Assembly (NCBI GenBank): GCA_003152315.1
Contig: PLZV01000030.1
Span: forward strand, 1-64,000
Origin: Verrucomicrobiota bacterium
GTDB taxonomy: Bacteria; Verrucomicrobiota; Verrucomicrobiia; Palsa-1439
Length of the DNA stretch: 64,000 bases
Reading direction: 5' to 3'
Shown piece after piece: positions 436 through 43,063 of the stretch (the first letter of the stretch is position 1; each line of letters begins with the position of its first letter). Under the pieces are notes generated by a model. The model worked only from the letters and a program-made list of their open reading frames with translations, was not told where the DNA came from and ran no database searches. The translations under genes were made by a program, and so were the position numbers.

Positions 436-3400
436 TCACTGCGGCATCACCCCGCGATAGAATCGGTGGTTGTAGTTCGTCGCTGCCGGGTCGGTGAAGA
501 AGAACGGCGAGTTTGTCGTGGCAAAGTTTGTGATCGGCTGCCAATTGATGAGGTCGGTCGAAGCCTGGATGATGTAATTAGACCCGACTGGACCTTGCAG
601 CATCAAGCTAAGACCATTTGTTGTCCACGGGTTAACTAATCCAAAGCCCAAAGAAATCGATGGCGAAACCCCAAACTGGGCGATCCGGTAAAAGCGATGC
701 GTATAGTGCATCGCATTCGTGTCCACCAGATACATTGGCCAATTCGTACAGCTGAAACCAAACAGTGAAGTCCAGTTCTTCAAATCCGTCGATGCTTGTA
801 GCGTGTAATTGCTACCAAACACGCCATAGAAGGCGATTTGGAAGCTGTAATCTGACAGGAGTTGAGGGTTGGTAATAGCGGGCGGTGTTAAAGCGGAGAT
901 GCCCGGGACCACAAGGAATGATTGCGGTACGGACAATGCCGCAACATACACGCCATTGCCAGGCTGCGACGCGTTTACTGTAACCGTCCCCACGCCCATG
1001 AGTGACAGGATGTTCCCGCTCAACTGTGCCGGACCGGATACTACCGAATAGCTTACTGGCAGACCAGAACTCGCTGTCGCGACTAGCGGGAATGGAGCAT
1101 CCCCCGCTGCCTGTTGGCTCAAAGTACCGAACGTAATTGTCTGCGGAACTTTGGATGCCGTGAAGCTTTGTTGCACGGCCACCGCTGCGTTGTAGTTTGA
1201 GTTGCCCGGCTGCCACGCATTGATCGCTACCGCGCCGCCACCGACGAGCGTGACAACATTGCTATCGAGGATTACCGGACCGGTGGCCACATTGAAGTAT
1301 ACCGGCAAGCCGGAACTTGTGGTGGCTGTCAAAGTGTAAGGCGGATCGCTGACTGCCATGTCTGGCACAGGAGCAAAGGCAATCGCTTGATTTGCCTTTG
1401 CCACATTGAAACTAACATCGACTGGTGTGGCTGAACTGAACGACGCATTTCCCGGTTGGTCAGCTTGCACTGTTACCGCTCCGGCCCCCGTCAATGTCAA
1501 CACGCTATTGGACAAGGTTGCCGGGCCGGAAACAACACTGAGCGTGACAGGCAAGCCAGAGCTTGCCGCTGCAACGAGCGGTATCGGTGCGTCTCCAAAT
1601 GTGTGATTGGGAATTGCGGGGAACGTGATCGTTTGAGCCTGATTGAGTGTCTGATAAATCACCGTCAAAGTGGCGTTGCTGCTGTTGCCTGCCGTGTCTG
1701 TGGCTGTAACGGTCAGAACATTTGCACCGGACAACAGTTGCACACCACTTACCGTCCAATTGGTTGTGCCGGCGGCCGTGCCACCACCACCTTGACTATT
1801 AGACCAAGTGATGCGGGCAAGAGACGCGTTATCACTCGCCACACCACCGATGTTAAGAAGTGACGTTGCATTCGTATATAATGCTGAGGATGTTGGATTT
1901 GTTATAAGAATACTCGGCACCTGAATATCCGCCTCATTCAAGGCAACAACACCTCCATCTTTATCGGCAATAAACACGTTCGCACTTTGCGCCACAGAAT
2001 CATTAGGCGCACAAATTCCACCGTATAACTGACTCATAGAATACGTACGCGTCAGTGCGGGAGATGCAGGATTGCTGATGTTAAATACGTACAACCCTCT
2101 GCCCGTTGTTGCATATAATTCATTGCCGCGAATATCCAGTGCCGTTGCCACGTAGGTGTCCAGTGGAAGGTTGGTAACAATCACCGGGCTAGCGGGATTA
2201 CTGATACCTACAACGTGAAGAAAACTCGGTGTCGCACTATCCAGCACATAGGCACACGCTCCGTTTGTCGATATTCTGACATCAATCACCGTAGCAAGAT
2301 TAGTAATACTTCCCTGTTCCACAGGGGCGCTTAAATTGGAAATATCCAAAATGCTTATCTTCGGTTGCTGCCCAGAATACGGATAGAGTCCTACAACTGC
2401 TTTTGTCCCATTGACTGCAAGAGCCCTCGCTAAGCCCGTCCCAAAAGTTGAAAAATCTTTTGTGCCGAGAACCGCTGGCAAAGCTGGGTTAGAAACATCA
2501 ATAGCCACAAACCGGGGTTGTGTGGACACATTAAGACCGGCTGCGTAAAGAATATTGCCTGCGATGGCCAGTTTGTAGCCATAAACAATGGAAGTGGGGA
2601 TATTTGCCACGACTTGAGGGGAACTCGGGGTTGTGAATCTGATGACCGCAATATTGTTATTTACCGTGCTGTAGGCATACCCATTCCCGGCCACGACGCG
2701 CGAAGCGCCGATTCCAGTTACCTGTCCAATTAATGTGGGCTGATTTGGCTGCGTAATATCAAAAACTCTAAAATCGCCCGTTGCCGCGCAAAGTGCATTA
2801 CCAGAAACCGCGACTGTCCCATAATTTCCACATGCACCCCCATCGGTGAATAACCCCAGAGAAGATGGACTATGAGGATTGGAAACAGTCACGATTTGGA
2901 GTCCTGATCCTCCACCTGCGACATAGGCTCGCCCTCCTGTAACAAGCATTTCTGTGTAGTACGGATTAGCTGAAAAGACGCTTGCGGCTTGACCAACTCT
3001 AGTCGCGGTCGTGCCATTGATACTGAACACATTAAACCCAATTCCATTGATTGAGGATTCGGCATAGAGGTAGCCGTTCGTTGTAGCTACCTGCTGATAT
3101 CCGCCGGTGCCGTTGTCGCCTGTGCTGAGCGTTGAATCAACCGGTGCAGCGGGATTTGAGACGTTAATCATGTGAATTAATCCTGTCCAATCTGTTCCAA
3201 ACACATTATTCCCGGACATCACAATCGCCGTTACACTGCCATTGCTGATCGAGGTCTGGCCCAGGAGAACAGGTGAAGACGCTTGTGAAACATCAACCAC
3301 ACAGAGAGTGGAGCCAGTCGTCAGATAAGCCAGCACTCCGTTTGTGGTTGCCTGCACGATCACGTCTTCTGCATTGCCTCCAAAACTCGTGGATGAGAGC

Positions 3401-25028: not shown

Positions 25029-25149
25029 CGGTTGACAGCTCGGTGCGTTGTTGACCTCGCAACATGACGCAGGTTGTGAACCTGCTTCTCATCGGTTAGT
25101 GATTTGGACGGATCGCATTCGTAGGCGTGTAGATGATGCAGAAGATTCG

Positions 25150-25515: not shown

Positions 25516-25643
25516 GTTTGTCTCCGTGTATGGATTGTCGGTTCAATAACCTCCAGAATCTTCATTGCGCGTATCGTCGTCATCCGCACCGCTCGTGTTG
25601 GCGAACCGATCTGCGCCCAGGCTGTCGATTGCATGCGCATGGG

Positions 25644-26111
25644 TCACGCGACCAGCCAGATGGTGTAACCGCTCGGCGTACGCAAGATGTGCTCCGCAAC
25701 GCTCTCGGCCAGGAATTCACCGAGCAGTGATCGACTGTGACGACCTATCACAATGGTGTCGCAGTGATGTGCCGCCGCCGCGCGAACTATCTGCTTCATC
25801 ACGTCGCCCTGCCTCTCGGCAAGCTCCGTGGTGACCAACTTGGGCTTGACGCCCTCGCAGACGATGGTTTTCTTGATGTCCGCCAGCATTTTCTCAGCGG
25901 CTTCCGTCCGTTGCCTCTCCATGCGCTCCGCCAACTCGTCGGCGGCGACCGGATCGGCCCCTTCCACAAACGGAGGAATCGGAACGAAAACATGGAACAC
26001 CACGATCCCGGGGAACGATGATTCGCTGCCCGCGCAGGCGTGCGCCGCATAGAGCGCCGTTTTCCGCGAGGTCTTGCCCCCGTCCACCGCAACCAACAGT
26101 TTATGTTTCAT
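25644..26111 (-). CDS. universal stress protein (UspA family)
   Basis: A 155-residue protein starting 'MKHKLLVAVDGGKTSRKTAL'; upstream open codons lack a ribosome-binding site. It has the UspA fold with the ATP-binding-type C-terminal motif 'IVIGRHSRSLLGEFLAESVA', a variant of G-x2-G-x9-G(S/T) in which the first Gly is replaced, so nucleotide binding is uncertain. It lies 22 bases downstream of the AhpD-like gene, in the same transcript as nsrR and ptsI. Confidence 0.8.
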   Translation of the reverse strand: MKHKLLVAVDGGKTSRKTALYAAHACAGSESSFPGIVVFHVFVPIPPFVEGADPVAADELAERMERQRTEAAEKMLADIKKTIVCEGVKPKLVTTELAERQGDVMKQIVRAAAAHHCDTIVIGRHSRSLLGEFLAESVAEHILRTPSGYTIWLVA

Positions 26112-26133: not shown

Positions 26134-26601
26134 CTATTTCTTCGGATGGGCTGGCGGTTGATAGGTCCCGGCAGCGGCGCGGAATCCGATGGCCAGCCGA
26201 TTCCACCCATTGATGGCGACAATGGCCAGCGTGAGATCGACAAGTTCCTTCTCGGTAAAATGCTGGCGAACGGATTCGTACACTGTATCGGGAGCATGGG
26301 TCTGGTGCACGAGCGTCAATGCTTCCGTCCACAGCAACGCGGCGCGTTCCCGATCGTTGAAGAACGGCGTTTCGCGCCAGGCACTCAGCGCGTATAACCG
26401 TTGCTCGGTCTCGCCGTTGGCCCGCGCGTCTTTGGTGTGCATGTCGATGCAGTAGGCGCAGCCGTTGATCTGCGAGGCGCGGGCCTTGACCAGTTCGAGC
26501 AACGACGGCTCCAGTCCGCAGTGGTGGACGTAGTCTTCCAGCCCCCACATCGCTTTGATGCCATCGGGGTTCGTTTGTTTGTAGCTGATACGCGGTTCCA
26601 T
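26134..26601 (-). CDS. AhpD-like carboxymuconolactone decarboxylase family protein
   Basis: A 155-residue protein; ATG 26601 was chosen because AGGA lies eight bases upstream, whereas ATG 26640 overlaps the ptsI stop without such a site. It contains the AhpD-type redox motif 'INGCAYCIDMHTKDAR' (C-x2-C-x3-H), followed by 'AWRETPFFNDRERAALLWTE'. Proteins with this motif reduce peroxides or serve as thiol redox carriers, which suits a nitrosative stress operon. It is located between ptsI and the universal stress gene. Confidence 0.8.
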   Translation of the reverse strand: MEPRISYKQTNPDGIKAMWGLEDYVHHCGLEPSLLELVKARASQINGCAYCIDMHTKDARANGETEQRLYALSAWRETPFFNDRERAALLWTEALTLVHQTHAPDTVYESVRQHFTEKELVDLTLAIVAINGWNRLAIGFRAAAGTYQPPAHPKK

Positions 26602-26636
26602 AAGAACGTTCCTAGTAGTCGATGATTTCGTGTTCG

Positions 26637-28388
26637 TCATTGCGTTGGTGCGTTCGCAGCCCGGAGGCAGGCTTTGATCTCTTGAATCGTATCCGACTCA
26701 AGAATCCGTCTCGCAACATCCTCGGCCTGCTGCATGCTAGTTGAACGAATCGCATTCTTGATCTCCAGGATCTCGCCCGGGCTTACACTGAGACTCCGGA
26801 AGCCCAGGCCGAGCAACAGTTGCGTGTAAGCGGGGTTGCCGGCGATCTCACCGCAAATGGAAATTCTCTTACCCTTCGCGTTGGCGACCGCCACCACCGA
26901 CGCCAGCACTTGCAGCATCGCCGGGTGAAGCGGCTCATAATAGGAAGCCACCTCGCTGCTTGTTCGGTCAGTGGTCAACAGGTACTGCACCAGATCGTTG
27001 GTGCCGACGCTGAAGAAATCAACTTCTTGGGCCAATTGTCCGGTCATAATCGCGGCGGCCGGGGTCTCGATCATGGCACCAACCGGGATGCGGGGATTGA
27101 ATGACTCGTGTTCCACAGCCAGGCTCGCCTTCACGCTTTCGATGGCCGCCTTGGCCGCGCGCAGCTCTTCCATACCACCGATCATCGGAAAGAGGATCGA
27201 TACGGGATGGGTTGCGCTCAGGCGAAGGATGGCGCGTAATTGGGCGTGCAGGATTTCGGGATGCGCCAGCAGCAGCCGGGTACCTCGACAACCCAACGAT
27301 GGATTGGCTTCCCGTGGCAGCGGAAAGTACGAAAGCAGTTTGTCGCTCCCAATATCCAAGGCCCGGATCACCACTTCGCGGGGCTTCAACCGGTCCGCCG
27401 TGGTGCGGTACATCAGGTATTGTTCTTCCTCCGAAGGAAAATGATCCTGAACGAGAAAGACAAATTCAGTTCGATATAGCCCAACGCCATCGGCGTTCAA
27501 TGTCGCGGCTGCCACCGCGTCGGCTGACTTGCCAATATTGGCGTATAGCTTGATCGAGACGCCGTCCCGCGTCACCGCTGGCAAATCAATCAACCCTTTC
27601 AGTGCGGTCTGATGGGCCTGCAGATCGGCTTCCAGCCGGTCATACTCACGTCGAATCGCCGGCGTCGGGTGGATGAAGACCCGGCCCGCCAAACCATCGA
27701 CGATGAGCGGGTCGCCGGTGCGGATTGTCTTCGTCGCATCGGGGACGTGGATCAACAACGGAATCTGCCGCGCGCGGGCAAGGATCGTGGCATGGGCCGT
27801 TTGTCCGCCCTTTTCGACGATCACTCCGTGAATCGTCTGGCTGTCCAACTGAACGATCATGGATGGCAACAACTCGGGGGTGACAATCACGCTCCCGTCG
27901 GGAAAGATGGGGACTTCCGAGCGCTGGTCTTTGGCTAAAACGTCGAGCAGCCGTTTGCCGACATCGCGCAAGTCCGCCGCCCGTTCCCTGAAATATGGAT
28001 CTTCCAGTCGAACAAACGCGGACGTCAGCGTATCGATCGCCTCGTCCAAGGCGGCCTCCACATTCATCTTTTGCATCAGGCAAAGGGCACTGACTTTCTC
28101 GCGCAACGAGGAATCATGCAAAAGAAGAATTTGTACCTCAAAAATCTCCGCTTCCTGCTTTCCCACTTTCTGCCGGACTTTTTCCTGTAACTCCAACAGT
28201 TCTCTCTCCGCCTCGGAAATCGCGACATCAAACCGCTCCATCTCCCTTATCGCCTCGCTCGCGTCGATCGTGCGTCGTGGTACAACCACGTCCTTGGCAC
28301 AGCCGCACACAAAGGCCGGCCCGCGAGCCAGTCCGGCCGAGGCCACCTCCCCGAACAACATTATTGATTTGTTCGTTTCCTCGACCAT
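26637..28388 (-). CDS. ptsI: phosphoenolpyruvate-protein phosphotransferase (PTS enzyme I)
   Basis: A 583-residue protein with the complete enzyme I layout: N-terminal HPr-binding helices, the phospho-His segment 'GGQTAHATILARARQIP' (usual form GGxTSH), the PEP-binding barrel with 'LYRTEFVFL' and 'RALDIGSDK', and the catalytic Cys in 'ISICGEIAGNP'. It transfers phosphate from PEP to HPr. No HPr, EIIA or sugar permease is nearby. Its place between nsrR (gap of four bases) and the AhpD-like gene (overlap with the alternative start) points to a regulatory phosphorelay or to co-regulation with NO stress. Confidence 0.9.
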   Translation of the reverse strand: MVEETNKSIMLFGEVASAGLARGPAFVCGCAKDVVVPRRTIDASEAIREMERFDVAISEAERELLELQEKVRQKVGKQEAEIFEVQILLLHDSSLREKVSALCLMQKMNVEAALDEAIDTLTSAFVRLEDPYFRERAADLRDVGKRLLDVLAKDQRSEVPIFPDGSVIVTPELLPSMIVQLDSQTIHGVIVEKGGQTAHATILARARQIPLLIHVPDATKTIRTGDPLIVDGLAGRVFIHPTPAIRREYDRLEADLQAHQTALKGLIDLPAVTRDGVSIKLYANIGKSADAVAAATLNADGVGLYRTEFVFLVQDHFPSEEEQYLMYRTTADRLKPREVVIRALDIGSDKLLSYFPLPREANPSLGCRGTRLLLAHPEILHAQLRAILRLSATHPVSILFPMIGGMEELRAAKAAIESVKASLAVEHESFNPRIPVGAMIETPAAAIMTGQLAQEVDFFSVGTNDLVQYLLTTDRTSSEVASYYEPLHPAMLQVLASVVAVANAKGKRISICGEIAGNPAYTQLLLGLGFRSLSVSPGEILEIKNAIRSTSMQQAEDVARRILESDTIQEIKACLRAANAPTQ

Positions 28389-28392
28389 CGGT

Positions 28393-28824
28393 TCAAATCC
28401 CCAGCACGGCGCGCATCTTGGCGGGTTGCTTCACGAGGTCGGCTAGCGTGTAACCGTCCAACACTACAAAAAACGCGCGTGCTGCCTCATCCAGCACGCC
28501 TTTCAGACGACAGGCCGGAAAGATCCGGCAGACGCGATTGTCCTTGTCCTTGCAATCGATCACCGTCTCGGACTCCTCACCAAGGCGGACGATGTCGCCC
28601 AAGCGAATTTCTTCACAAGGCCGGGCCAGGGTGAAGCCACCGCCAATCCCGCGCCGGGTCACGAGATAGCCGCTGCGGCCGAGATCATGCACCACCTTAA
28701 CGAGGTGATGGCGCGAAATGCCATATGTCCCGGCTACTTCATCCACCGTCACCCGTTCCGGGTGGCGCAAGGCGGTCTGCATGAGCACCCGGACCGAATA
28801 ATCAGAATAGGCACTGAGTTGCAT
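28393..28824 (-). CDS. nsrR: NsrR-like NO-sensing Rrf2-family repressor
   Basis: A 143-residue Rrf2 regulator beginning 'MQLSAYSDYSVRVLMQTAL', with a winged helix ('VDEVAGTYGISRHHLVKVV') and the wing 'GGGFTLARP'. The cluster cysteines, in 'DCKDKDNRVCRIFPACRLK', follow the NsrR pattern with the diagnostic 'PACRLK'; the first gap is three residues longer than in E. coli NsrR. NO would disrupt the Fe-S cluster and release DNA. A near-palindromic NsrR-type site lies 43 bases upstream of the start, which suggests autoregulation and control of the divergent FTR1 operon. Confidence 0.85.
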   Translation of the reverse strand: MQLSAYSDYSVRVLMQTALRHPERVTVDEVAGTYGISRHHLVKVVHDLGRSGYLVTRRGIGGGFTLARPCEEIRLGDIVRLGEESETVIDCKDKDNRVCRIFPACRLKGVLDEAARAFFVVLDGYTLADLVKQPAKMRAVLGI

Positions 28825-28866
28825 CGCAAGCGTAGGATTGCACAGCCTGGCAACAACCTCAAGGAA

Positions 28867-28889
28867 AAGTTGTACTTGAAATACATGTT
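28867..28889. promoter_or_regulatory. NsrR-type operator between nsrR and the FTR1 operon
   Basis: An 11-1-11 inverted repeat: left half AAGTTGTACTT, centre G, right half AAATACATGTT. Eight of eleven positions pair, and both halves resemble the known NsrR half-site AAGATGCATTT. It lies in the only divergent intergenic region of the cluster, 43 bases from nsrR and 91 from the FTR1 start. Confidence 0.65.
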
Positions 28890-28980
28890 TTGTCGAGTAT
28901 CCTTTCACCAGTGAATCCGAATACAAATAGGGTGACGCTCCGGGTCGTGGTTATCGGACATGAGTTAACCTGCACAAAGT

Positions 28981-30399
28981 ATGTTTGAATCATTCATCAT
29001 CATGGTCCGCGAAGGCATCGAAGCGGCCCTTATCATTGGGATCATTCTGGCCGTCCTGCGCCAGTCGGATCGGCGTCACTTGGAAAAGCCGGTATACGTC
29101 GGCTTGGTGGCGGCGATCCTGGCCAGTATTGGTGCTGCCATCGTCTTGCATTACACCCCGGTCAGCAACGAGTGGTATGAAGGTTCGTTGTACCTGGTCT
29201 CGGCGGCGTTCGTGATCACGATGCTGGTGTGGATGCACCGCACCGCCCGCACCTTGCGCTCGCGGATTGAGCAGCGCGTCAAAAAGGCCGTTGCTTCCAC
29301 CCCCGAGCGCAATGCGCGCGAGGCGTGTGGCTTGGGCGCGTTCGCCTTCGTGATGGTCTTCCGTGAGGGTGCCGAGACGGTGATGTTCCTCAGCGCCGTC
29401 AATCTGACAACTGACGCCGTGCTGGGCTTCCTCGGCTCGGTGCTCGGTCTGATGGTGGCGATTGTCTTCGCAGTGATGTTCGTGCGCGGCAGCCTGCGGG
29501 TCAACCTGCGTCGCTTCTTCTTGGTTACGGAATGGGTGCTCGGCATCTTCGTGGCGCAATTGCTCGTCAACGGGTATCACGAGTTTTCGGAGGCCGGTAT
29601 CTTCCCTGCAACCCAACGCAGCATGGCGCTGGTCGGACCGATCGTGCGGAATAACTCGCTGTTCATCCTCGCCATTGTCGCCATCCCGTTATTCATGTGG
29701 CTCAGCCGGACCCGTCAACCGGCGCCCGCGACGGACGGCCTGGGCGCGGCGGAACGTCGTTTGGCGCTGGCGGCGACACGCCGCGACAGGTTCTGCGGTT
29801 ACGGCACGCTCGCCACCACGCTGGTGGCGCTGGCCGCTGTCGGTGTGGTGTACGCGCGCGAAGTGATGCCGAAGAAACTGCCTGCACCAGAAATCCTCAC
29901 CCGCGAGGACGGTGTGGTCAACGTATCGTTGGCGCGGCTGGATGATGGCAAGCTGCATCGCTTCGGTTTCGTCTCGGGGGACCAAACAGTGCGGTTTCTG
30001 GTGATGAAAGGCTCGGACGGGAAAGTCCGCACCGCGCTTGACGCTTGTGCCATTTGCGGTTCGTTCGGCTACAGTCAGGAAGACAAAACTCTTGTCTGTC
30101 TGAATTGCGCTGCGGAAATCAATCCGCTGACGCTGGGCATCGGCGGCGGCTGCAACCCGATCCCGCTCGAATCTGAGTTGACGCCAACCGTCCTACGCAT
30201 CCGTGTCGCAGCGCTCGAAAAGGAAGCGCACCTGTTTACCGCCACCGAGCAGGCCGCGCAGACCGAGATCGATCCGGTGTGTGGCATGCGGGTCAAGATT
30301 AGCGAAGCCGCCGCGTTCGAGACAGTCAACGGCAAGACCTACTATTTCTGCAGCGCGAAATGCCGCGCGGAGTTCGACAAAGACCATCAGGAGAAATGA
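28981..30399 (+). CDS. FTR1-type iron permease fused to DUF2318 and YHS domains
   Basis: A 472-residue protein. Seven transmembrane segments form an FTR1 permease with two RExxE iron motifs ('REGIEA' near residue 10 and 'REGAET' near 130). After the last helix a DUF2318 domain carries 'DACAICGSFGYSQ', 'VCLNCAAEINP' and 'GGGCNPIP', and the final 40 residues are a YHS metal-binding domain ('DPVCGMRVKIS', 'YYFCSAKCRAEF'). In Campylobacter-type iron systems FTR1 and DUF2318 are separate proteins beside P19 and an ABC transporter; here three domains are fused and P19 is absent. Likely role: ferrous or copper-dependent iron import across the inner membrane. Confidence 0.85.
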   Translation: MFESFIIMVREGIEAALIIGIILAVLRQSDRRHLEKPVYVGLVAAILASIGAAIVLHYTPVSNEWYEGSLYLVSAAFVITMLVWMHRTARTLRSRIEQRVKKAVASTPERNAREACGLGAFAFVMVFREGAETVMFLSAVNLTTDAVLGFLGSVLGLMVAIVFAVMFVRGSLRVNLRRFFLVTEWVLGIFVAQLLVNGYHEFSEAGIFPATQRSMALVGPIVRNNSLFILAIVAIPLFMWLSRTRQPAPATDGLGAAERRLALAATRRDRFCGYGTLATTLVALAAVGVVYAREVMPKKLPAPEILTREDGVVNVSLARLDDGKLHRFGFVSGDQTVRFLVMKGSDGKVRTALDACAICGSFGYSQEDKTLVCLNCAAEINPLTLGIGGGCNPIPLESELTPTVLRIRVAALEKEAHLFTATEQAAQTEIDPVCGMRVKISEAAAFETVNGKTYYFCSAKCRAEFDKDHQEK

Positions 30400-30403
30400 C
30401 CCA

Positions 30404-31573
30404 ATGTTCTTTCGGCTGCTGCTTGAATCCTTCGCCCGCCGCCGCTCCCGCAAGGTGCTGGCCGTGCTGGCGGTGTGGCTCGGCGTCAGCCTCGTTATCG
30501 GCCTGCTGACGTTGAGTCTGGATGTCGGCGACAAAATGAACCGCGAGTTGCGCTCTTTCGGCGCGAACATCAAACTCGAACCCGCCGGTGCCGCGCTGCC
30601 CGTGCGCGTCGGCGGGTACGAACTCGCCGCCGCGGTCAACACCGGCTATCTCAACGAATCGAAACTGCCTGCCTTGAAGACAATCTTCTGGGCCAACAAC
30701 ATCCTCGACGTCTCGCCGCGCCTATGGACGAAACTCGACGGCGTTCCACTGCTCGGCATGGATCTGCACCGTCGTCCCGCATACTGGAAACTTACCGGCG
30801 CTTGGCCGACTGCGCCCGACGAATGTCTGCTCGGCGCTACAGTGAAAGCGCTGCCGGCCAATGTCCCGTTACGCGTCACCGGCACTGTCACTACCGGCGG
30901 CACCGAAGACGGCGCGATCATCGCGGCGCTGCCGACCGTGCAAAAGCTGGCTGATTTGCCCGGCCAGATTTCCGAGGCTGACATCAGCGCGTTGATCACG
31001 CCGGAAAACAAACTCGCCGACAAATACCACCTCGACCCGAAATCGCTCACGCCCGCGGAGTACGAACGCTGGGCTTGCACACCGTATCCGGGCACGGTGG
31101 CGGCGGACATTCAAGATGCCGTCCCCGGTTCCGTCGCGCGCGTCGTGCGCCGCGTCTCGGAGTCGCAAGGCGTGGTGCTGACGCGGATTGGCGGCCTGCT
31201 CACGCTGCTCGACCTGCTCGCCGCGGTCGCATGCACGCTCAGCGTGATGGGGGTGCTCACTTCCGCCGTGCTCGAACGCCGCACCGAGGTCGCCCTGCTG
31301 CGGGCCATCGGCGCGCAGCAAGGCAATGTGCTCCATTTGTTTGTCAGCGAAGCCGGCCTGCTTGGTTTTATTGGTGGCGCGATGGCCGGCGTAACCGGCT
31401 TGTTGCTCGGCCGCTGGCTGCTGCACGCGGTGTTCGGTAGCCAGGCCGAGACGCACGTCGTGCTGCTGCTGCTCGCGCCATTACTCGGGCTGCTCGTCGC
31501 GGTCGTCGCCAGCGCGTTGCCGATTCTGCACACGCTGCGGCAGGAGACCGCCCAGGTGTTGCATGGGAATTAG
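30404..31573 (+). CDS. ABC transporter permease, FtsX/MacB type (first)
   Basis: A 389-residue protein starting 'MFFRLLLESFARRRSRKVLA', five bases after the FTR1 fusion. One N-terminal transmembrane helix, a large extracytoplasmic domain (about 50-260), then three C-terminal helices of the FtsX domain with 'RRTEVALLRAIGAQQGNVLH'. This topology matches the permeases that accompany FTR1/DUF2318 in bacterial iron uptake clusters. It forms a heterodimer candidate with the next gene, which it overlaps by 11 bases. Confidence 0.8.
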   Translation: MFFRLLLESFARRRSRKVLAVLAVWLGVSLVIGLLTLSLDVGDKMNRELRSFGANIKLEPAGAALPVRVGGYELAAAVNTGYLNESKLPALKTIFWANNILDVSPRLWTKLDGVPLLGMDLHRRPAYWKLTGAWPTAPDECLLGATVKALPANVPLRVTGTVTTGGTEDGAIIAALPTVQKLADLPGQISEADISALITPENKLADKYHLDPKSLTPAEYERWACTPYPGTVAADIQDAVPGSVARVVRRVSESQGVVLTRIGGLLTLLDLLAAVACTLSVMGVLTSAVLERRTEVALLRAIGAQQGNVLHLFVSEAGLLGFIGGAMAGVTGLLLGRWLLHAVFGSQAETHVVLLLLAPLLGLLVAVVASALPILHTLRQETAQVLHGN

Positions 31574-32627
31574 CCGCCACAGAATGCTCGCGCTGATGGT
31601 GCGCCGCTCGCTCTGGAACAACGCGCGCATCACCGCATGGGCGTTGCTGACGCTGGGGACGTGCGCCGCACTCGTCACGCTGTTCACGACCGCCACGTTC
31701 GAGGTCGGCCACAAGCTTGGCCACGAATTGCGCACGCTCGGCGCCAACGCTGTCGCGTACCCGGCCACTGCCACGGCGCAGTGGACGCAATTCGATGCCG
31801 TCGCGCAACGGCTCGGCGTGCGCACCGCCTCGTTGTCGCTGCGGGTCCAACTCATCAACGGCAAACCGGTCGCCGTCGTCGCCGCCGACCCGCAACGGTT
31901 GGCCGATTTGACCCCGTATTGGTCTGTCACCGGAGTCCGTGGCGACTGTCTGGCGGGTCAACGTGTCGTCGCCGCGTTTGGCTGGAAACTCGGCCAGGAA
32001 ATCAATTTCGACGGCGACAAACGGCGCTTGACCGGCATCATCCAGACGGGCGACGAGGATGAGGAGCGTGTTTTCATTTCCGGCGCCGCGCCGGCCACGA
32101 ACGATTTCCGTTACGCGCTGGTCTCGGTCGCCGGCGGCGAGGCGGCCATCGAGCAACTGCAACGGGCGCTCGCCGGCACCGGCATCGAGTTGAAGCCGTT
32201 GCGCCAAGTGTTGTACGGTGAACAACACGTGCTCGAAAAAGTGAACGTGCTGTTCGTGACCACGCTCGGCGCGGTGCTGCTGCTGACGGCGCTGGGCGTC
32301 TCGGCCTCGATGCTGGCGCGCGTGGTGGAGCGACGCAAGGAATTCGCGCTGTTGCAGGCGCTGGGTGCGAAGCGGCGGGCAGTTGTGAAATTCCTGTTGG
32401 CCGAGAGTGCGACAGTAGGCGTGATGGCAGCCGTTGCCGGTTTTTTGATCGGCTCGCTGTTGGCTTCCGTGATGGTGCAGCAGATTTTCCACGCGTCGGT
32501 CGGGCCGCAATGGGCGGCCCTGGCCGCAGCGCTGGGTACGACGACGCTGGTGTCGTTACTGGCGGGCGGCATTGCCTGCGGACGAACGCTACGGTTTCAA
32601 CCAGCCGCGGCCTTGCGAGGAGAATAG
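31563..32627 (+). CDS. ABC transporter permease, FtsX/MacB type (second)
   Basis: A 354-residue paralogue of the preceding permease with the same layout: N-terminal helix, periplasmic domain, and a three-helix FtsX domain with 'RRKEFALLQALGAKRRAVVK'. It overlaps the upstream gene by 11 bases and ends two bases before the ATPase. ATG 31584 is an alternative start. Role: second half of the inner-membrane channel or mechanotransmission unit of the iron-associated ABC system. Confidence 0.8.
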   Translation: MGISRHRMLALMVRRSLWNNARITAWALLTLGTCAALVTLFTTATFEVGHKLGHELRTLGANAVAYPATATAQWTQFDAVAQRLGVRTASLSLRVQLINGKPVAVVAADPQRLADLTPYWSVTGVRGDCLAGQRVVAAFGWKLGQEINFDGDKRRLTGIIQTGDEDEERVFISGAAPATNDFRYALVSVAGGEAAIEQLQRALAGTGIELKPLRQVLYGEQHVLEKVNVLFVTTLGAVLLLTALGVSASMLARVVERRKEFALLQALGAKRRAVVKFLLAESATVGVMAAVAGFLIGSLLASVMVQQIFHASVGPQWAALAAALGTTTLVSLLAGGIACGRTLRFQPAAALRGE

Positions 32628-32629
32628 CA

Positions 32630-33349
32630 ATGAACAATTCAGCCGTTGTGTTGGAAAATGCGGGCCGCGCTTACCCGGGCGGAGTGCACGCGCTCGATAG
32701 CGTATCGTTGCGCATCGAGACGGGCGAATGGGTGGCCCTCATGGGACCGTCAGGCTCGGGCAAGACGACGTTGCTGAATCTGGTGGACGGCTTGGATCAC
32801 CCGACGAGCGGGCGCATTTGGGTGCTGGGGCGCGACACGACTGAATTTCGCGCGGATGATGCCGCGACGTTTCGCCGTGAGACCATGGGGCTGATTTTTC
32901 AGCAATTTCATCTGATTCCCTACCTGACGGCGGTCGAAAACGTGATGCTGGCGCAGTACTACCATTCGCTCGTGGACAAGGGAGAGGCGATGCGGGCGCT
33001 GGAGGCGGTGCAACTTACCGAGCGAGCGCACCATTTGCCCTCACAACTGTCCGGCGGCGAGCAGCAGCGGGTCTGCATCGCCCGGGCGCTGATCAACGAC
33101 CCGAAAATTATTCTCGCTGACGAGCCGACGGCGAACCTAGACGAGGTGAACGAGGCGAAAGTCTTTGAAGTTTTCCGCACGCTGCACCAACAGGGCAAAA
33201 CCATCCTAATCGCCACACACGATCCGACGCTGGGCGGTCTGGCGCAGCGTAAGATTATGCTGCGGCACGGTCGGCTCGTCGAGGATCGGTACTCGGGCAG
33301 CAGCGGACCGAGACCAGCCCGCAGCCTCGGCGTCGCGACGACGAGCTGA
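32630..33349 (+). CDS. ABC transporter ATP-binding protein (MacB/LolD type)
   Basis: A 239-residue ATPase with Walker A 'MGPSGSGKTTLL', Q-loop 'GLIFQQFHLIP', signature 'LSGGEQQRVCIARAL', Walker B 'IILADEPTANLD' and the switch His 'ATHDPTLG'. It energises the two FtsX-type permeases directly upstream. The start ATG 32630 is preceded by GAGGAGAATAGCA, which contains a good ribosome-binding site. Confidence 0.9.
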   Translation: MNNSAVVLENAGRAYPGGVHALDSVSLRIETGEWVALMGPSGSGKTTLLNLVDGLDHPTSGRIWVLGRDTTEFRADDAATFRRETMGLIFQQFHLIPYLTAVENVMLAQYYHSLVDKGEAMRALEAVQLTERAHHLPSQLSGGEQQRVCIARALINDPKIILADEPTANLDEVNEAKVFEVFRTLHQQGKTILIATHDPTLGGLAQRKIMLRHGRLVEDRYSGSSGPRPARSLGVATTS

Positions 33350-33463: not shown

Positions 33464-33820
33464 ATGATTCAGATCAAACGGGTTTACGAAGCGCCGGCGA
33501 GCGAGGACGACGCACGATTTCTGGTGGAGCAGCTGTGGCCGCGCGGGATGAAGAAAGAGGCGCTGAAGATCGACGGTTGGGTGAAAGACATCGCGCCGAG
33601 CGCAGGCTTGCGGCGCTGGTTCAATCACGATCCCGCGAAGTGGATGGAGTTTCAGAAACGTTACCGGGCCGAGCTGGCCGGGCATACTGCCGAATCGCAC
33701 CAGCTTCTCAAAGCTGCGAAGCACTGCAACGTTACGCTGCTTTACAGTGCCCACGACACCGCGCACAACAACGCCGTCGTGCTGCAACACTATCTGGAAG
33801 CGAAGCTGCGCCGGAAATGA
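33464..33820 (+). CDS. YeaO-like DUF488 family protein (copy 2)
   Basis: A 118-residue protein, 'MIQIKRVYEAPASEDDARFL', paralogous to 25150-25515 along its length ('LWPRGMKKEALKI', 'WFNHDPAKWMEF', 'LLYSAHDTAHNNAVVL'). Its stop overlaps the nnrS start (ATGA), so it is co-translated with an NO-related gene. Having one copy in each arm of the divergent cluster suggests duplication within the cluster. Function unknown. Confidence 0.8.
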   Translation: MIQIKRVYEAPASEDDARFLVEQLWPRGMKKEALKIDGWVKDIAPSAGLRRWFNHDPAKWMEFQKRYRAELAGHTAESHQLLKAAKHCNVTLLYSAHDTAHNNAVVLQHYLEAKLRRK

Positions 33821-35235
33821 GCGCAACGCGTCACCGCGAGTTTGACGTGACGTTCATCTGGACCGCACTGCTGATCGCGCTGGTTGGCGGATTCACTATC
33901 GGCGCGTATCTGATCTGGCAGATCGGGCTTCAACACAATCTGCCAGAGGATTTTCCCGTATGGGTTCAGGCGCACGGTCATCTCCAATTGGTCGGCTGTG
34001 TGCGGCTGTTCATCATGGGCATCAGCCTGTTCTTCATTCCGCGGCTGGCGGGCGTGCCCCTCGAACGACGCCGTCGGCAGGAGTGGATCCTACCGTTGAC
34101 CGCCGGCGGGTTGATCGCGCAGACGATCGGCCGGCTGCTATACGGATGCGCGGGAGAAGGACTGGCCCGGGGCTGTCTGCGTGCTGCGGTAGCCATGGGC
34201 GGCGTGACGGAATGGCTGGGGCTGATGGCGTACATTGCCGTGCTTGCGCCCGTGGCGCTTCGCCGACCACAGGGCAAGAACACGGGGCTCGACAAACTCA
34301 GACCGTACTTTGCGATGATGGCGGCGGGATGGGTCCTGTACGCAACATTGTGGGTGTGGTTCGCAGCACAGATGGCGGGAACCGGCGACATGGTGGCACC
34401 ACGCGATTGGAACCAGTGGGCCGTCGAAGTGGAACTCGCACTCGTGTTGTTCCCGGTCGCCTACGCGTTCTCGGTGCGGAACCTGCCGTACTTTCTTTAC
34501 GTGCCGCCTGTCACCGCGCCGGTGGGGCGCTGGGGCTATGCGTACCTCGGAGCGACGGCGCTCGTGCTCGGCGGGCTGCATCCGTGGGCCTTGGGCGCGG
34601 CGCCACGGACAGCATTGACGATTGCCGCGCTGGGTCGCGTCGCCCGTGACGGCATCATGCTGTGGTTGGTGTGGGATTTGAACGTGTTCGTCCGCACGCG
34701 TCCGCTGCCGTACATACTCGCGGAGCGCTCCGAACTCAATCCCAACCCGCCACCGAAACCGTGGCGTCGCTGGTTCGACCGCCCGCGCTGGGGCCGGCCC
34801 GAATGGTTGATTCTCACTGCGTACGCCTGGCTGGCGTTCGGCACCACCGTCGATTTGCTCCACGCCAGCGCCACACTTATCGGCGGGCGCTTCGCGCTCT
34901 CGCAGGACGCATTGCGCCACACGTTCCTGCTGGGATTCATCACGCTCCTGATCTGCGGCATGGCTCAGAAGATGGTTCCTGGTTTCCTTCACAAACCCCG
35001 TTTGGCGTATCCGTCGCTGGTGATCTGGATTCTCGTGTTCGGCAATGCCAGCGTCTTGTGCCGTGTCGTGCCGTTGTTGCTGCCGTTGGGTCGCCTGCCG
35101 CCACGAGCGATCAGCGCTGCCATGCTGGCTCTCGCGTGGTCGGGCCTGTTCGCCTGGATCACCATCGCGTTGACGGGTTGGAACCTCTGGCAGACCGCGT
35201 GCCTGCGCCGCACCGGCGATGTTCCCGTTCGTTGA
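33817..35235 (+). CDS. nnrS: NnrS-family heme-copper membrane protein (first)
   Basis: A 472-residue protein with about 12 predicted transmembrane segments. 'VWVQAHGHLQLVGCVRLFIMG' near the N-terminus and 'ALRHTFLLGFITLLICGMAQKM' near the C-terminus supply the conserved His residues of NnrS. NnrS is known to protect cells from NO and is controlled by NO-responsive regulators in other bacteria. A second, domain-extended NnrS lies at 40450-42180. It follows a YeaO-like gene with a four-base overlap; an FNR/DNR-type box overlaps its last codons and serves the next gene. Confidence 0.8.
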   Translation: MSATRHREFDVTFIWTALLIALVGGFTIGAYLIWQIGLQHNLPEDFPVWVQAHGHLQLVGCVRLFIMGISLFFIPRLAGVPLERRRRQEWILPLTAGGLIAQTIGRLLYGCAGEGLARGCLRAAVAMGGVTEWLGLMAYIAVLAPVALRRPQGKNTGLDKLRPYFAMMAAGWVLYATLWVWFAAQMAGTGDMVAPRDWNQWAVEVELALVLFPVAYAFSVRNLPYFLYVPPVTAPVGRWGYAYLGATALVLGGLHPWALGAAPRTALTIAALGRVARDGIMLWLVWDLNVFVRTRPLPYILAERSELNPNPPPKPWRRWFDRPRWGRPEWLILTAYAWLAFGTTVDLLHASATLIGGRFALSQDALRHTFLLGFITLLICGMAQKMVPGFLHKPRLAYPSLVIWILVFGNASVLCRVVPLLLPLGRLPPRAISAAMLALAWSGLFAWITIALTGWNLWQTACLRRTGDVPVR

Positions 35236-35273
35236 CCCACATCAACCTACTGCTGCTGCGTCTGTGTTAAGGT
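35232..35273 (+). promoter_or_regulatory. FNR/DNR-type box and -10 hexamer for the cupin gene
   Basis: TTGACCCACATCAA (35232-35245) followed after 22 bases by TAAGGT (35268-35273). The box centre is 41.5 bases from the predicted start near 35280, a class II CRP/FNR architecture shared with two other promoters in this block. Confidence 0.7.
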
Positions 35274-35759: not shown

Positions 35760-35801
35760 TTGACTTAGGTCAACGACGGCGGTGCCAGTCGCGCGTAAGC
35801 T
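35760..35801 (+). promoter_or_regulatory. FNR/DNR-type box and -10 hexamer for the hemerythrin gene
   Basis: TTGACTTAGGTCAA (35760-35773) has perfect TTGAC/GTCAA arms. After 22 bases comes TAAGCT (35796-35801). The predicted transcription start, near 35808, coincides with the ATG, so the message may be leaderless. Confidence 0.75.
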
Positions 35802-38396: not shown

Positions 38397-38557
38397 CGAG
38401 AATCCTGATGACGATAATGATCGCGTCTACTTGACCAGACCAGTGACCACGCTTCGCCTTAGCCCGCTGCTGGGCATCAAGCCGCGCGTGATGCTGTCCG
38501 TCGTGATGGGCTCGACTCGGTAAACTGTCCGTGATAATACAGAGGAGGATGGTCACC

Positions 38558-39232
38558 ATGAATCTTACGTATCTTCTTCGAAGCTGCCATTTGTTCTCCG
38601 ATTTGGATGAGCGTGAGTTAGATGCCATCCGCGAGATTGCTCAGCATCACGAATACGGGAAGGGTCAATTCGTTTTTGGCGAGGGCAGCCCCTCTCGAGG
38701 GCTGCACATTGTCGTCGCGGGGACGGTGAAGATCTATCGGGTCGGTCCGGACGGTCGTGAGCGCGTATTTCATGTGGTGCAAACGGGCGACGCTTTTGCC
38801 GAGGCGGCCATGTTCATGGATCTGTACCCGGCGACAGCCGAAGCATTGACGCCTGCGACCGTGATCGTGATTGAGAAGAACGGCTTCAAGCAGTTGCTCG
38901 CGCGCGATCCAAAGCTAAGCTTCCGAATTATCGGGACTTTGGTGAAGTGGCTACGCCAGATGCGTGATGCGCTCACGGACCTTACTTTGAAGGAGGTACC
39001 CGCGCGCTTTGCAATCTACGTGCTCAGCCTCCCTTCGAAGCCTGGCAAGCCCATCAAAGTGACGATCAGTAAAACAACCGTCGCGCAAGTAATCGGCACG
39101 TCGAAGGAAACCTTCTCCCGTCTCTTGGCGCGTTTGGCCCGGTGCCGCATCCTTACTTATCACGGCAGCTTCATTCGGATCCAGAATCGCATCCGCTTGG
39201 AAGCCATTGCGCAGGGCGAAGAAAAGATATGA
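38558..39232 (+). CDS. CRP/FNR-family regulator, DNR-like
   Basis: A 224-residue protein starting 'MNLTYLLRSCHLFSDLDE'; the AGAGGAGG at 38541 supports this ATG over earlier GTG/ATG codons. It has a cyclic-nucleotide-binding-type sensor domain ('GLHIVVAGTVKIYRVG', 'GDAFAEAAMF'), a dimer helix, and the helix-turn-helix 'TTVAQVIGTSKETFSRLLARL' region (recognition helix E-x2-S-R). It lacks the four-Cys cluster of FNR, so it is of the DNR/NnrR type that senses NO through heme or another ligand. It is the obvious candidate to bind the three TTGA-N6-TCAA boxes nearby. GATAAT at 38533-38538 may be its -10. Confidence 0.85.
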   Translation: MNLTYLLRSCHLFSDLDERELDAIREIAQHHEYGKGQFVFGEGSPSRGLHIVVAGTVKIYRVGPDGRERVFHVVQTGDAFAEAAMFMDLYPATAEALTPATVIVIEKNGFKQLLARDPKLSFRIIGTLVKWLRQMRDALTDLTLKEVPARFAIYVLSLPSKPGKPIKVTISKTTVAQVIGTSKETFSRLLARLARCRILTYHGSFIRIQNRIRLEAIAQGEEKI

Positions 39233-39356: not shown

Positions 39357-39398
39357 TTGACTTACATCAATCCTGTCTCAGCCCACATGCGCTACCGT
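39357..39398 (+). promoter_or_regulatory. FNR/DNR-type box and -10 hexamer for nirK
   Basis: TTGACTTACATCAA (39357-39370), then 22 bases, then TACCGT (39393-39398). The predicted transcription start is near 39405, giving a leader of about 23 bases before the GTG at 39428 with AAAGGA inside it. Confidence 0.75.
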
Positions 39399-39427
39399 GA
39401 AGCGTGTCAGAAAGGATTATATTGAAC

Positions 39428-40453
39428 GTGAAACAGACGAAATCACTCTTGGTCTTAACTGGAATCCTCGTGTTGGCGGGCGGGGTCATCGCTGCTCCTC
39501 TGCGTGAGTACGCACAGTTAACGTACGCTCCCGAAGTACCACCGCCAATTCCGCGTCGCCCCCCGGCCATTGTCGAAGTCCACCTGACAAGTGGCGTTGT
39601 GACAAACCAACTCAAAGGCGACGTGAAGTATGCTTTCTGGTGTTTCAACGGACACACGCCCGGACCGTTCATCCGCGCGCGTGTCGGCGACACGCTCGAA
39701 CTGCACGTCGCCAACACCGACGCCAGCGGCAAGCCGCACAACTGCGATTTGCACGCCGTGACGGGACCCGGCGGCGGCGCGCCGGTCACGACGACCGTGA
39801 AAGGCGAGGAGGCCGTCTCGTGGTTCAAGCTGCTGCAGCCGGGCTTGTTCCTTTACCACTGCGCCGCCCCGCCCGTGATGGACCACATCGCCAACGGCAT
39901 GTACGGCATGATCCTCGTCGAGCCAAAGAACGGTCTGCCGAAGGTCGACCGCGAGTTCTACGTGATGCAGAGCGAGATTTACACGAAGGACGCGCCTGAG
40001 GACGCGGAGTTTCTCGAGTACTCGCACGAGAAAGGCCTCGAAGAGCGCCCGACCTTCGTGATCTTTAACGGCCGCGTCGGTTCGCTGACAGGAAAGAACT
40101 CGCTTCACGCCACCGTCGGCGAACGCGTGCGCATCTACTTCGGCGATGCGGGGCCAAACCTCATCTCCTCATTCCATGTCATCGGAGAGATCTTCGATAA
40201 AGTGTACCGCGAGGGCGGTCTTGTCGACCCGCCATCGCACAGTATCCAGACGACCCTGGTTCCCGCCGGCGGCGCGACCGTGGTGGAGTTCGACGCAAAG
40301 GTGCCCGGCAGCTATACGCTGGTCGATCACGCCATCTTCCGCATCGAGCAAGGCGCGGTCGGCTATCTCGAAGTCGCGGGCCATCCGCAATGCGACATCT
40401 ATCACTCCGACAAGGACCCCGTCCGCTGCAAGGGCTGTCTGGTGCACCCATGA
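39428..40453 (+). CDS. nirK: copper-containing nitrite reductase
   Basis: A 341-residue periplasmic enzyme with two cupredoxin domains that reduces nitrite to NO. It has a signal peptide ('LVLTGILVLAGGVIAAP'). The active-site stretch 'NCDLHAVTGPGGGA' carries the catalytic Asp and a type 2 copper His; 'LFLYHCAAPPVMDHIANGMYG' carries type 1 copper Cys, His and Met and the bridging His; 'SSFHVIGEIFDKVY' supplies another type 2 His. GTG 39428 fits the predicted promoter; GTG 39404 and TTG 39422 are alternatives. The stop overlaps the second nnrS (ATGA). Electron donor not encoded nearby. Confidence 0.9.
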   Translation: MKQTKSLLVLTGILVLAGGVIAAPLREYAQLTYAPEVPPPIPRRPPAIVEVHLTSGVVTNQLKGDVKYAFWCFNGHTPGPFIRARVGDTLELHVANTDASGKPHNCDLHAVTGPGGGAPVTTTVKGEEAVSWFKLLQPGLFLYHCAAPPVMDHIANGMYGMILVEPKNGLPKVDREFYVMQSEIYTKDAPEDAEFLEYSHEKGLEERPTFVIFNGRVGSLTGKNSLHATVGERVRIYFGDAGPNLISSFHVIGEIFDKVYREGGLVDPPSHSIQTTLVPAGGATVVEFDAKVPGSYTLVDHAIFRIEQGAVGYLEVAGHPQCDIYHSDKDPVRCKGCLVHP

Positions 40454-42181: not shown

Positions 42182-42466
42182 ATGAGTCTCATCCAGACAA
42201 TCAACGAGAAGTTCACCGCCCATCGTGACGGCGGTTGTTGTTGCGGTCATGGCGAATCGCATTCGGAAACGGCACCAAAGAGCATCACCAAAGACTTGAT
42301 CGTCCGTGAGGTTGCTGATCGTTGGCCGCAGACAGTCGCAGTGTTCGGTAATCACAAGGTGGACTTCTGTTGCGGTGGGGCGCACTCTATCGAGCAGACG
42401 GCTCGCGCCCGCGGTTGTCAAGATGTCGGCGCGTTGGTCGCCGACTTGAATCGGGCAATCCAGTAA
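42182..42466 (+). CDS. stand-alone ScdA/RIC N-terminal (DUF542) domain protein
   Basis: A 94-residue protein with the domain's 'VFGNHKVDFCCGGAHSIEQT' (double Cys motif) and a Cys-rich N-terminus ('GGCCCGHGES') that could bind metal. Full-length RIC proteins repair Fe-S clusters damaged by NO and carry a hemerythrin domain; here only the N-domain is present, while a separate hemerythrin protein is encoded at 35808. It begins one base after the nnrS stop, in the nirK operon. Confidence 0.8.
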   Translation: MSLIQTINEKFTAHRDGGCCCGHGESHSETAPKSITKDLIVREVADRWPQTVAVFGNHKVDFCCGGAHSIEQTARARGCQDVGALVADLNRAIQ

Positions 42467-42495
42467 ACAAGCGTTCTCAGACGGAGGAGGTCTTC

Positions 42496-43020
42496 ATGCA
42501 TTATCGACGATTGTGGTTCAGCCTCGGCGCGGTCATCATCGGCTCGTTCGCGGTCCTGGGATATTTCGGGCGGGAGATTTATCGCATGGCCCCGCCGATA
42601 CCAGAGCGCGTGGTCACCAGCGATGGTCACATCCTGTTCACGGGACAGGACATCAAGGATGGACAGAACGTCTGGCAATCGATTGGCGGACAAGAGGTCG
42701 GGACCGTGTGGGGACACGGGGCCTACGTCGCACCTGACTGGACCGCGGACTGGCTGCCATCGTGAACTAACGTGGATTCTCGACCGCTGGGCCAATCAGG
42801 AGCATGGCAAGTCTTACGATCAACTCGATGTCGAGACAGCCGCAGCGCTAAAGGCGCGGCTCAAAAAAGAAATTCGTACCAACACCTACGATTCCAGTAC
42901 CGGCGATCTCGTTGTCTCACCGACGCGTGAACAAATCTTTCAGGTAGTCGAATGGATTGAGACCGTGCCGCCGACAACTGCCCAGCAGGGAATAGATCAC
43001 CGCGCTGCGTTCTTCATCTG
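42496..43020 (+). pseudogene. norB: quinol-dependent NO reductase (qNOR) 5' remnant, frameshifted
   Basis: A well-placed ATG with GGAGGAGG upstream starts 'MHYRRLWFSLGAVIIGSF', then 'DGHILFTGQDIKDGQNVWQS' and 'GTVWGHGAYVAPDWTADWL', the conserved qNOR N-terminus. A frameshift near 42760 stops this frame at 42765, and similarity continues in another frame ('LTWILDRWANQEHGKS', 'TNTYDSSTGDLVVS') to about 42990. The whole catalytic 12-helix part (about 600 residues) is missing. That second frame runs straight into the RVRLVP tail at 43031. Hence no intact NO reductase is encoded here. Confidence 0.8.
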
Positions 43021-43030
43021 CCACCAACTC

Positions 43031-43063
43031 CCCGCCCGCTACCGCGTGCGGCTGGTGCCGTAG
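43031..43063 (+). repeat. RVRLVP-tail repeat, copy T2 (orphan)
   Basis: Encodes 'PARYRVRLVP' and a stop, differing from T1 mainly by loss of one Tyr codon; similarity extends left to about 43018. It is fused in frame to the qNOR remnant and marks the right edge of the nitrite/NO block. Confidence 0.75.

Follow-up and report, generated by a model that had tools for sequence, protein, structure and literature searches.

The window, by which we mean the whole stretch of 64,000 nucleotides that was analyzed, carries a 23 bp inverted repeat between two divergent gene clusters (Table 1). On the minus side an Rrf2-family gene, nsrR, begins 42 nt from the repeat. On the plus side, 91 nt away, begins a gene for a fusion of FTR1, DUF2318 and YHS domains, followed by two permease genes and an ATPase gene that are spaced by a few nt or overlap. 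A preliminary description of this DNA had placed an NsrR operator between an NsrR-type gene and an FTR1 operon, and this arrangement was borne out.

Table 1. Features of the nsrR/FTR1 divergent region and the flanking gene clusters.
Feature	Position	Strand	Basis or remark
Universal stress protein (Usp)	25644..26108	-	PF00582; last gene closely spaced with nsrR
Carboxymuconolactone decarboxylase/AhpD-like	26134..26640	-	PF02627; overlaps ptsI by 4 nt
ptsI-like PEP-protein phosphotransferase	26637..28388	-	TIGR01417, 500.9 bits, above cut-off; 4 nt after nsrR
nsrR, Rrf2-family [Fe-S] repressor (predicted), 143 aa	28393..28824	-	Asp8, Cys91, Cys99, Cys105
Predicted nsrR promoter	28834..28862	-	-35 TTGAGG 4 bp from operator edge; -10 AATCCT degenerate
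Predicted NsrR operator	28867..28889	.	23 bp, AAGTTGTACTTGAAATACATGTT
Predicted FTR1/FetA operon promoter	28876..28903	+	-35 TTGAAA inside operator, 16-bp spacer, -10 TATCCT
FTR1-DUF2318(FtrD-like)-YHS fusion, FetA-like, 472 aa	28981..30399	+	domain matches, motifs
FtsX-like ABC permease, FetB-like	30401..31573	+	PF02687
FtsX-like ABC permease, FetC-like	31563..32627	+	PF02687
ABC ATPase, FetD-like	32630..33349	+	PF00005
DUF488 protein, possible distal plus-operon member	33464..33820	+	PF22752/PF04343; 114 nt after fetD
Multi-span membrane protein, possible plus-operon end	33826..35235	+	weak COX1 likeness

The Rrf2 protein spans the full length of the fold (PF02082, 117 bits; TIGR00738 above cut-off). 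Its best specific NCBIfam model is the NsrR equivalog (115.8 bits, below the cut-off of 182), and its best match in the PDB is NsrR (5n07, E=7e-17), with IscR, CymR and other Rrf2 chains ranking below it. The PACRLK motif, from which an NsrR-type repressor had been read in the preliminary description, is present, and Asp8 and the three cysteines are kept in relatives. In a phylogenetic tree the protein falls inside a 22-row verrucomicrobial NsrR clade (support 100/99), within which its placement is not resolved. From its sequence, the assignment as an NsrR-type regulator is strongly supported. None of 10 sampled relatives from the host's own order had a close copy; nsrR is therefore patchily distributed.

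The repeat at 28867-28889 reads AAGTTGTACTT-G-AAATACATGTT, at exactly the coordinates given in the preliminary description. It is an 11-1-11 inverted repeat in which 8 of 11 pairs are complementary, with mispairs at positions 3, 4 and 9, and it departs from the NsrR consensus AAGATGYATTTNAAATRCATCTT at 3 positions. A pattern search found no second match in the window and no match at all in 100 shuffles. The 17-bp core ATGYATTTNAAATRCAT, allowing up to 2 mismatches, occurs at 2 sites in the whole 4.89 Mb genome, compared with 0 for a reversed-pattern control; the second site (C5:206380) was rejected as an operator, since a coding sequence starts there. On a matrix built from the relatives' sites, with the window site left out, the operator scores 36.4 bits; first-order random sequence reached no more than 15.9 bits over 5 Mb, and the next best site within the window reaches 4.3 bits. 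A sequence-only model of the relatives' operators, which included the window site among its sequences, matched 28867-28889 and nothing else in the genome (E about 2e-4). The genome-wide site scans used a first-look filter and may miss weak sites.

A scan of 84,980 species' genomes yielded 22 verrucomicrobial nsrR loci with 67-84% identity, or 23 with the window. In 18 of the relatives' loci, as in the window, no more than 110 nt separate the palindrome from the nsrR start, and it mostly stands at -63 to -67; in one further locus (L012) it precedes a hemerythrin gene that itself precedes nsrR, and in another (L022) it lies at the start of the RIC gene. The preliminary description had made its proposal depend on the palindrome being conserved where relatives share the gene order. 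Such a relative was not found; the operator itself is kept beside nsrR in 21 of the 23 loci, whatever the partner gene. One exception, L017, has 145 bp of sequence ahead of nsrR before its contig ends, and the same genome has an operator on a second contig, in front of a hemerythrin-like gene that runs off the contig end; the other, L025, is a match without the protein's N-terminus. Pairwise identity is 0.77 in the operator and 0.27-0.33 in the flanks, which are saturated, and the conservation is therefore selective. The relatives' consensus, TAAAGATGTATTTCAAATACATCTTTA, contains the NsrR consensus. Taken together, these data strongly support the palindrome as a genuine, conserved predicted NsrR site, far above chance, and NsrR almost certainly binds it. 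Phylum-wide matches to the operator model at other loci (L064-L067) adjoin no recognisable NO genes and look like chance.

The genes that face nsrR across the operator vary. They encode RIC/YtfE in eight loci, including L004 and L013, hemerythrin in three, including L005, a globin in one, PtsI followed by RIC in L008, and a pyruvate dehydrogenase operon in L010 (the L010 and L013 genes were assigned from their sequences); in two loci NO reductase genes follow nsrR. That most of these partners belong to the NO response supports the NsrR assignment. In 18 of the relatives' 21 genomes there are 1-3 NsrR boxes, and multiple sites share the nsrR contig. Further sites were found in front of a pyruvate dehydrogenase E1-E2 operon (L099), a transaldolase gene (L101) and a glutamine amidotransferase-DUF488 pair (L098). 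This suggests that the NsrR regulon of Verrucomicrobiota is small, local and metabolically flavoured. In L099 the box at 2899-2925 stands before an E1 gene at 2964-5027 on the plus strand, and in L010 a box precedes the E1 operon at 4820-5896 on the minus strand. L005 and L010 lie on one contig (WYBW01000037.1) and are nsrR paralogues about 20 kb apart with one operator each; a third NsrR site there precedes an amidotransferase-DUF488 pair. The PtsI homologue of L008 (3633-5813, minus strand) carries a fused GNAT-type acetyltransferase domain.

The operator is embedded in a recurrent promoter arrangement. On the divergent strand, 15 of 19 loci have a TTG at the centre of the operator and, 16-17 bp further on, TAnnnT; with shuffled flanks, the pattern TTGnnn-16/17-TAnnnT was found in a mean of 0.64 and a maximum of 5. 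On the nsrR side, 15 of 19 loci likewise show a TTG 3-5 bp past the operator, with [TC]AnnnT after a further 17 bp (with shuffled flanks, a mean of 0.04 and a maximum of 2); the nsrR promoter of the window passes the -35 pattern and fails that of the -10. The only sigma-70-like promoter found in 28700-29100 is that at 28876-28903, directed at FTR1. No Fur-like box better than those of control regions was found in the intergenic region. NsrR on the operator would cover the -35 element of the FTR1 promoter, where repressors classically bind. It would also border the nsrR promoter from upstream of the -35, a weaker position for a repressor.

The operon so placed resembles Fet iron importers. The FTR1 iron motif REXXE occurs twice in the fusion protein (REGIE and REGAE), together with the cysteine pattern CxxC-x13-CxxC-x14-C, and the DUF2318-YHS protein, two permeases and ATPase of a Fet system are all present. 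The genome, about 96% complete, has no P19/FetP (PF10634). The FTR1 gene of the preliminary description is thus best described as a FetA-like FTR1 fusion of a FetABCD set, not as a complete FTR1 import system; iron would be its substrate. Downstream, the DUF488 gene recalls the DUF488 operon of L098, which has its own NsrR box. The membrane protein after it was considered as NnrS and rejected, with no NnrS Pfam match and a weak COX1 match only (PF00115, E=7e-4, below cut-off).

The pairing of FTR1 with nsrR, by comparison, was not found again. FTR1 is beside nsrR in none of the relatives' nsrR loci; a search of 387 other phylum genomes at E 1e-60 did not find the fusion; and the 21 nsrR-bearing genomes hold nothing nearer to it than one distant FTR1 protein. 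Three other genomes have FtrD above cut-off; the sequence read around it contains no NsrR box in any of them. A homology of the FTR1 leader to RIC leaders was considered and rejected, the similarity not being significant. The nsrR-FTR1 link is so far a single case resting on geometry, while conservation backs the operator and a regulated divergent slot. Of the NO control of iron import that had been predicted, the part that stands is the one drawn from position and promoter geometry, which make such control likely; a conserved FTR1 pairing does not add to it.

Our preferred reading, to which we give a probability of about 0.77, is that 28867-28889 is the operator of a local, island-dedicated NsrR that governs the FetABCD-like operon, dampens nsrR-ptsI and is released by NO. 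Three alternatives were weighed against it. The incomplete pairing of the repeat and its mismatches to the consensus could point to a chance match, but this idea is already refuted by computation: the leave-one-out score lies far above the chance maximum in 5 Mb, and the position of the palindrome is fixed in relatives. It is quite improbable, too, that the Rrf2 protein is a RirA-like iron sensor and that low iron, not NO, opens the FTR1 operon. Among the specific NCBIfam models, RirA comes second (104.3 bits vs. 115.8 for NsrR), and the FetMP-FetABCDEF systems of Campylobacter jejuni are under iron/Fur control (PMC10783030). Against this, the window protein has Asp8, a residue that supplies the fourth ligand of the cluster in NsrR and lacks conservation in RirA (PMC5863699), the operator follows the NsrR consensus and not the IRO boxes of iron genes, and the partner genes of relatives belong to the NO response.

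The strongest of the alternatives, although still unlikely, holds that the operator serves nsrR (and ptsI) only, and that a later-arrived FTR1 operon is divergent by accident, with a promoter of its own that is unregulated or otherwise regulated. The confinement of the FTR1-nsrR pairing to the window genome, the distance of the FTR1 start from the operator and the lack of significant leader similarity to RIC genes all fit such a history. It is countered by the promoter evidence, as the -35 of the one sigma-70-like promoter lies inside the operator and targets FTR1, the divergent geometry recurs across the loci, and on the nsrR side the operator sits in the weaker repressor position. We retain the NO-released operator as the preferred reading, in which NsrR probably represses the FTR1 operon and is likely to control its own gene.

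How far control might extend along the minus strand was judged from gene spacing. Control of nsrR-ptsI is plausible, because ptsI follows nsrR after 4 nt and PtsI is a direct divergent target in L008, and it probably includes the next two genes, of which usp lies 25 nt beyond the AhpD-like gene. Gaps of 128 nt at 25516-25643 and 121 nt at 25029-25149 then precede two DUF488 genes on the same strand, beyond which come closely spaced genes for the molybdopterin oxidoreductase, NDH-2 and a NuoF-like protein. A terminator-like hairpin of 8 pairs and a T run lies within nsrR (28499-28477, nsrR strand) and could reduce read-through to ptsI; terminator-like counts in the region are at chance level. 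The long minus operon of the preliminary description, reaching from ptsI to NDH-2 and the molybdopterin oxidoreductase, is upheld for ptsI and probably for the two genes after it; the gaps of about 120-130 nt and the hairpin speak against the remainder. An influence as far as NDH-2 is doubtful, and for NDH-2 and the molybdopterin oxidoreductase as NsrR targets there is no support beyond gene order.

Other elements with a bearing on NO were noted. Three perfect FNR/DNR-type boxes, TTGAYNNNNRTCAA, lie at 35232-35245, 35760-35773 and 39357-39370, with 0.3 expected, and precede a cupin gene, a hemerythrin-DUF2249 gene and nirK. With the nearby Crp/Fnr gene (38531-39232) they constitute a second, separate regulatory layer. 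A fragment at 42370-43063, apparently truncated, resembles the N-terminal portion of a quinol NO reductase; elsewhere in the genome (C32:120047) is an NO reductase-like gene whose open frame covers 785 aa, and a similar DUF542-like sequence precedes both. The genome's own RIC gene (C58:3041-3709) encodes a protein 52% identical to that of L004. No NsrR box was found in the 3.7 kb read around this gene, unlike in most nsrR-bearing relatives, nor in the stretch read around the C32 NO reductase gene.

These considerations lead to a model. The gene content, the operator and its conservation, the type of regulator and the geometry of the promoters are computational results; binding, the response to NO, the direction of control and iron as the substrate are inferred. 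[Fe-S]-loaded NsrR dimers would bind 28867-28889 and, by covering the -35 of the divergent promoter, silence the FetA-FetB-FetC-FetD-like operon; from just upstream of the nsrR -35 they would dampen nsrR-ptsI. NO, from the nearby NirK (39404-40453) or from outside, would wreck the cluster, and NsrR would leave the operator. The cell could then raise iron import for rebuilding iron-sulfur proteins, along with the ptsI, AhpD-like and usp products. NO destroys iron-sulfur clusters, so that iron import tied to an NO sensor would make a logical repair circuit. The presence of nirK and NO-related genes in the same window was counted in favour of this reading; the sub-cut-off NsrR score, the degenerate nsrR -10 and the missing P19 were counted against it. 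In Verrucomicrobiota more widely, there is about an even chance that NsrR acts as a local switch, its one strong operator-promoter offering a slot to varied damage-control modules and putting iron supply and carbon flow directly under NO control. The modules filling this slot would be RIC, hemerythrin, globin, PtsI, pyruvate dehydrogenase and transaldolase and, in the window, the FetABCD-like importer.

The locus points to a verrucomicrobial NsrR regulon, of which a literature search found no published description. The operator itself is ordinary; regulator and operator are of a known kind, and the target is new. A direct link between NsrR and iron uptake is poorly documented, and the search found no paper connecting NsrR with FTR1. 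As far as the searched literature shows, a FetABCD-like operon is a new NsrR target, and the locus offers a clean single-operator test of the link.

Comparison with known systems places the regulator and its operator on familiar ground. Rodionov et al. (2005; PMC1274295), who covered gamma- and beta-proteobacteria, Bacillus and Streptomyces, give the NsrR palindrome as gATGyAT-N5-ATrCATc; palindrome and regulator family are the same as in the window, and their targets hmp, hcp, dnrN (RIC), nnrS, norB and nirK resemble the partner genes of the verrucomicrobial relatives. FTR1/FetABCD, ptsI, pyruvate dehydrogenase and DUF488 are not among the targets in the sections consulted. NsrR of Streptomyces coelicolor (5n07, 7b0c; PMC9338935) shares Asp8 and three cysteines with the window protein and has a 23-bp operator at hmpA1 and a 23-bp site before nsrR, as in the window; the cysteine spacing differs, being X7-X5 in the window, where the operator sequence is of the proteobacterial type, unlike that of Streptomyces. 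Campylobacter FetA is described as a membrane protein of eight spans, with DUF2318 and YHS domains and the FetBCD ABC transporter after it (PMC10783030), and its DUF2318 has the cysteine pattern found here (PMC6083913). The FetMP-FetABCDEF system of C. jejuni and that of the window share a DUF2318-YHS membrane protein and, after it, two permeases and an ATPase. Unlike C. jejuni FetA, the membrane part in the window bears two FTR1 REGxE motifs; FetP/P19 and thioredoxins were not seen in the window system, and an NsrR box replaces the C. jejuni Fur box. The nearest claim found in the literature concerns Magnetospirillum, in which NsrR was claimed to affect iron-transport genes (feoAB1) and to activate magnetosome genes (PMC11014258); this is disputed, a later study having found no evidence for the activation (PMC12774639). 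NsrR was cast there as an activator, whereas the window presents a predicted repressor operator overlapping a promoter.
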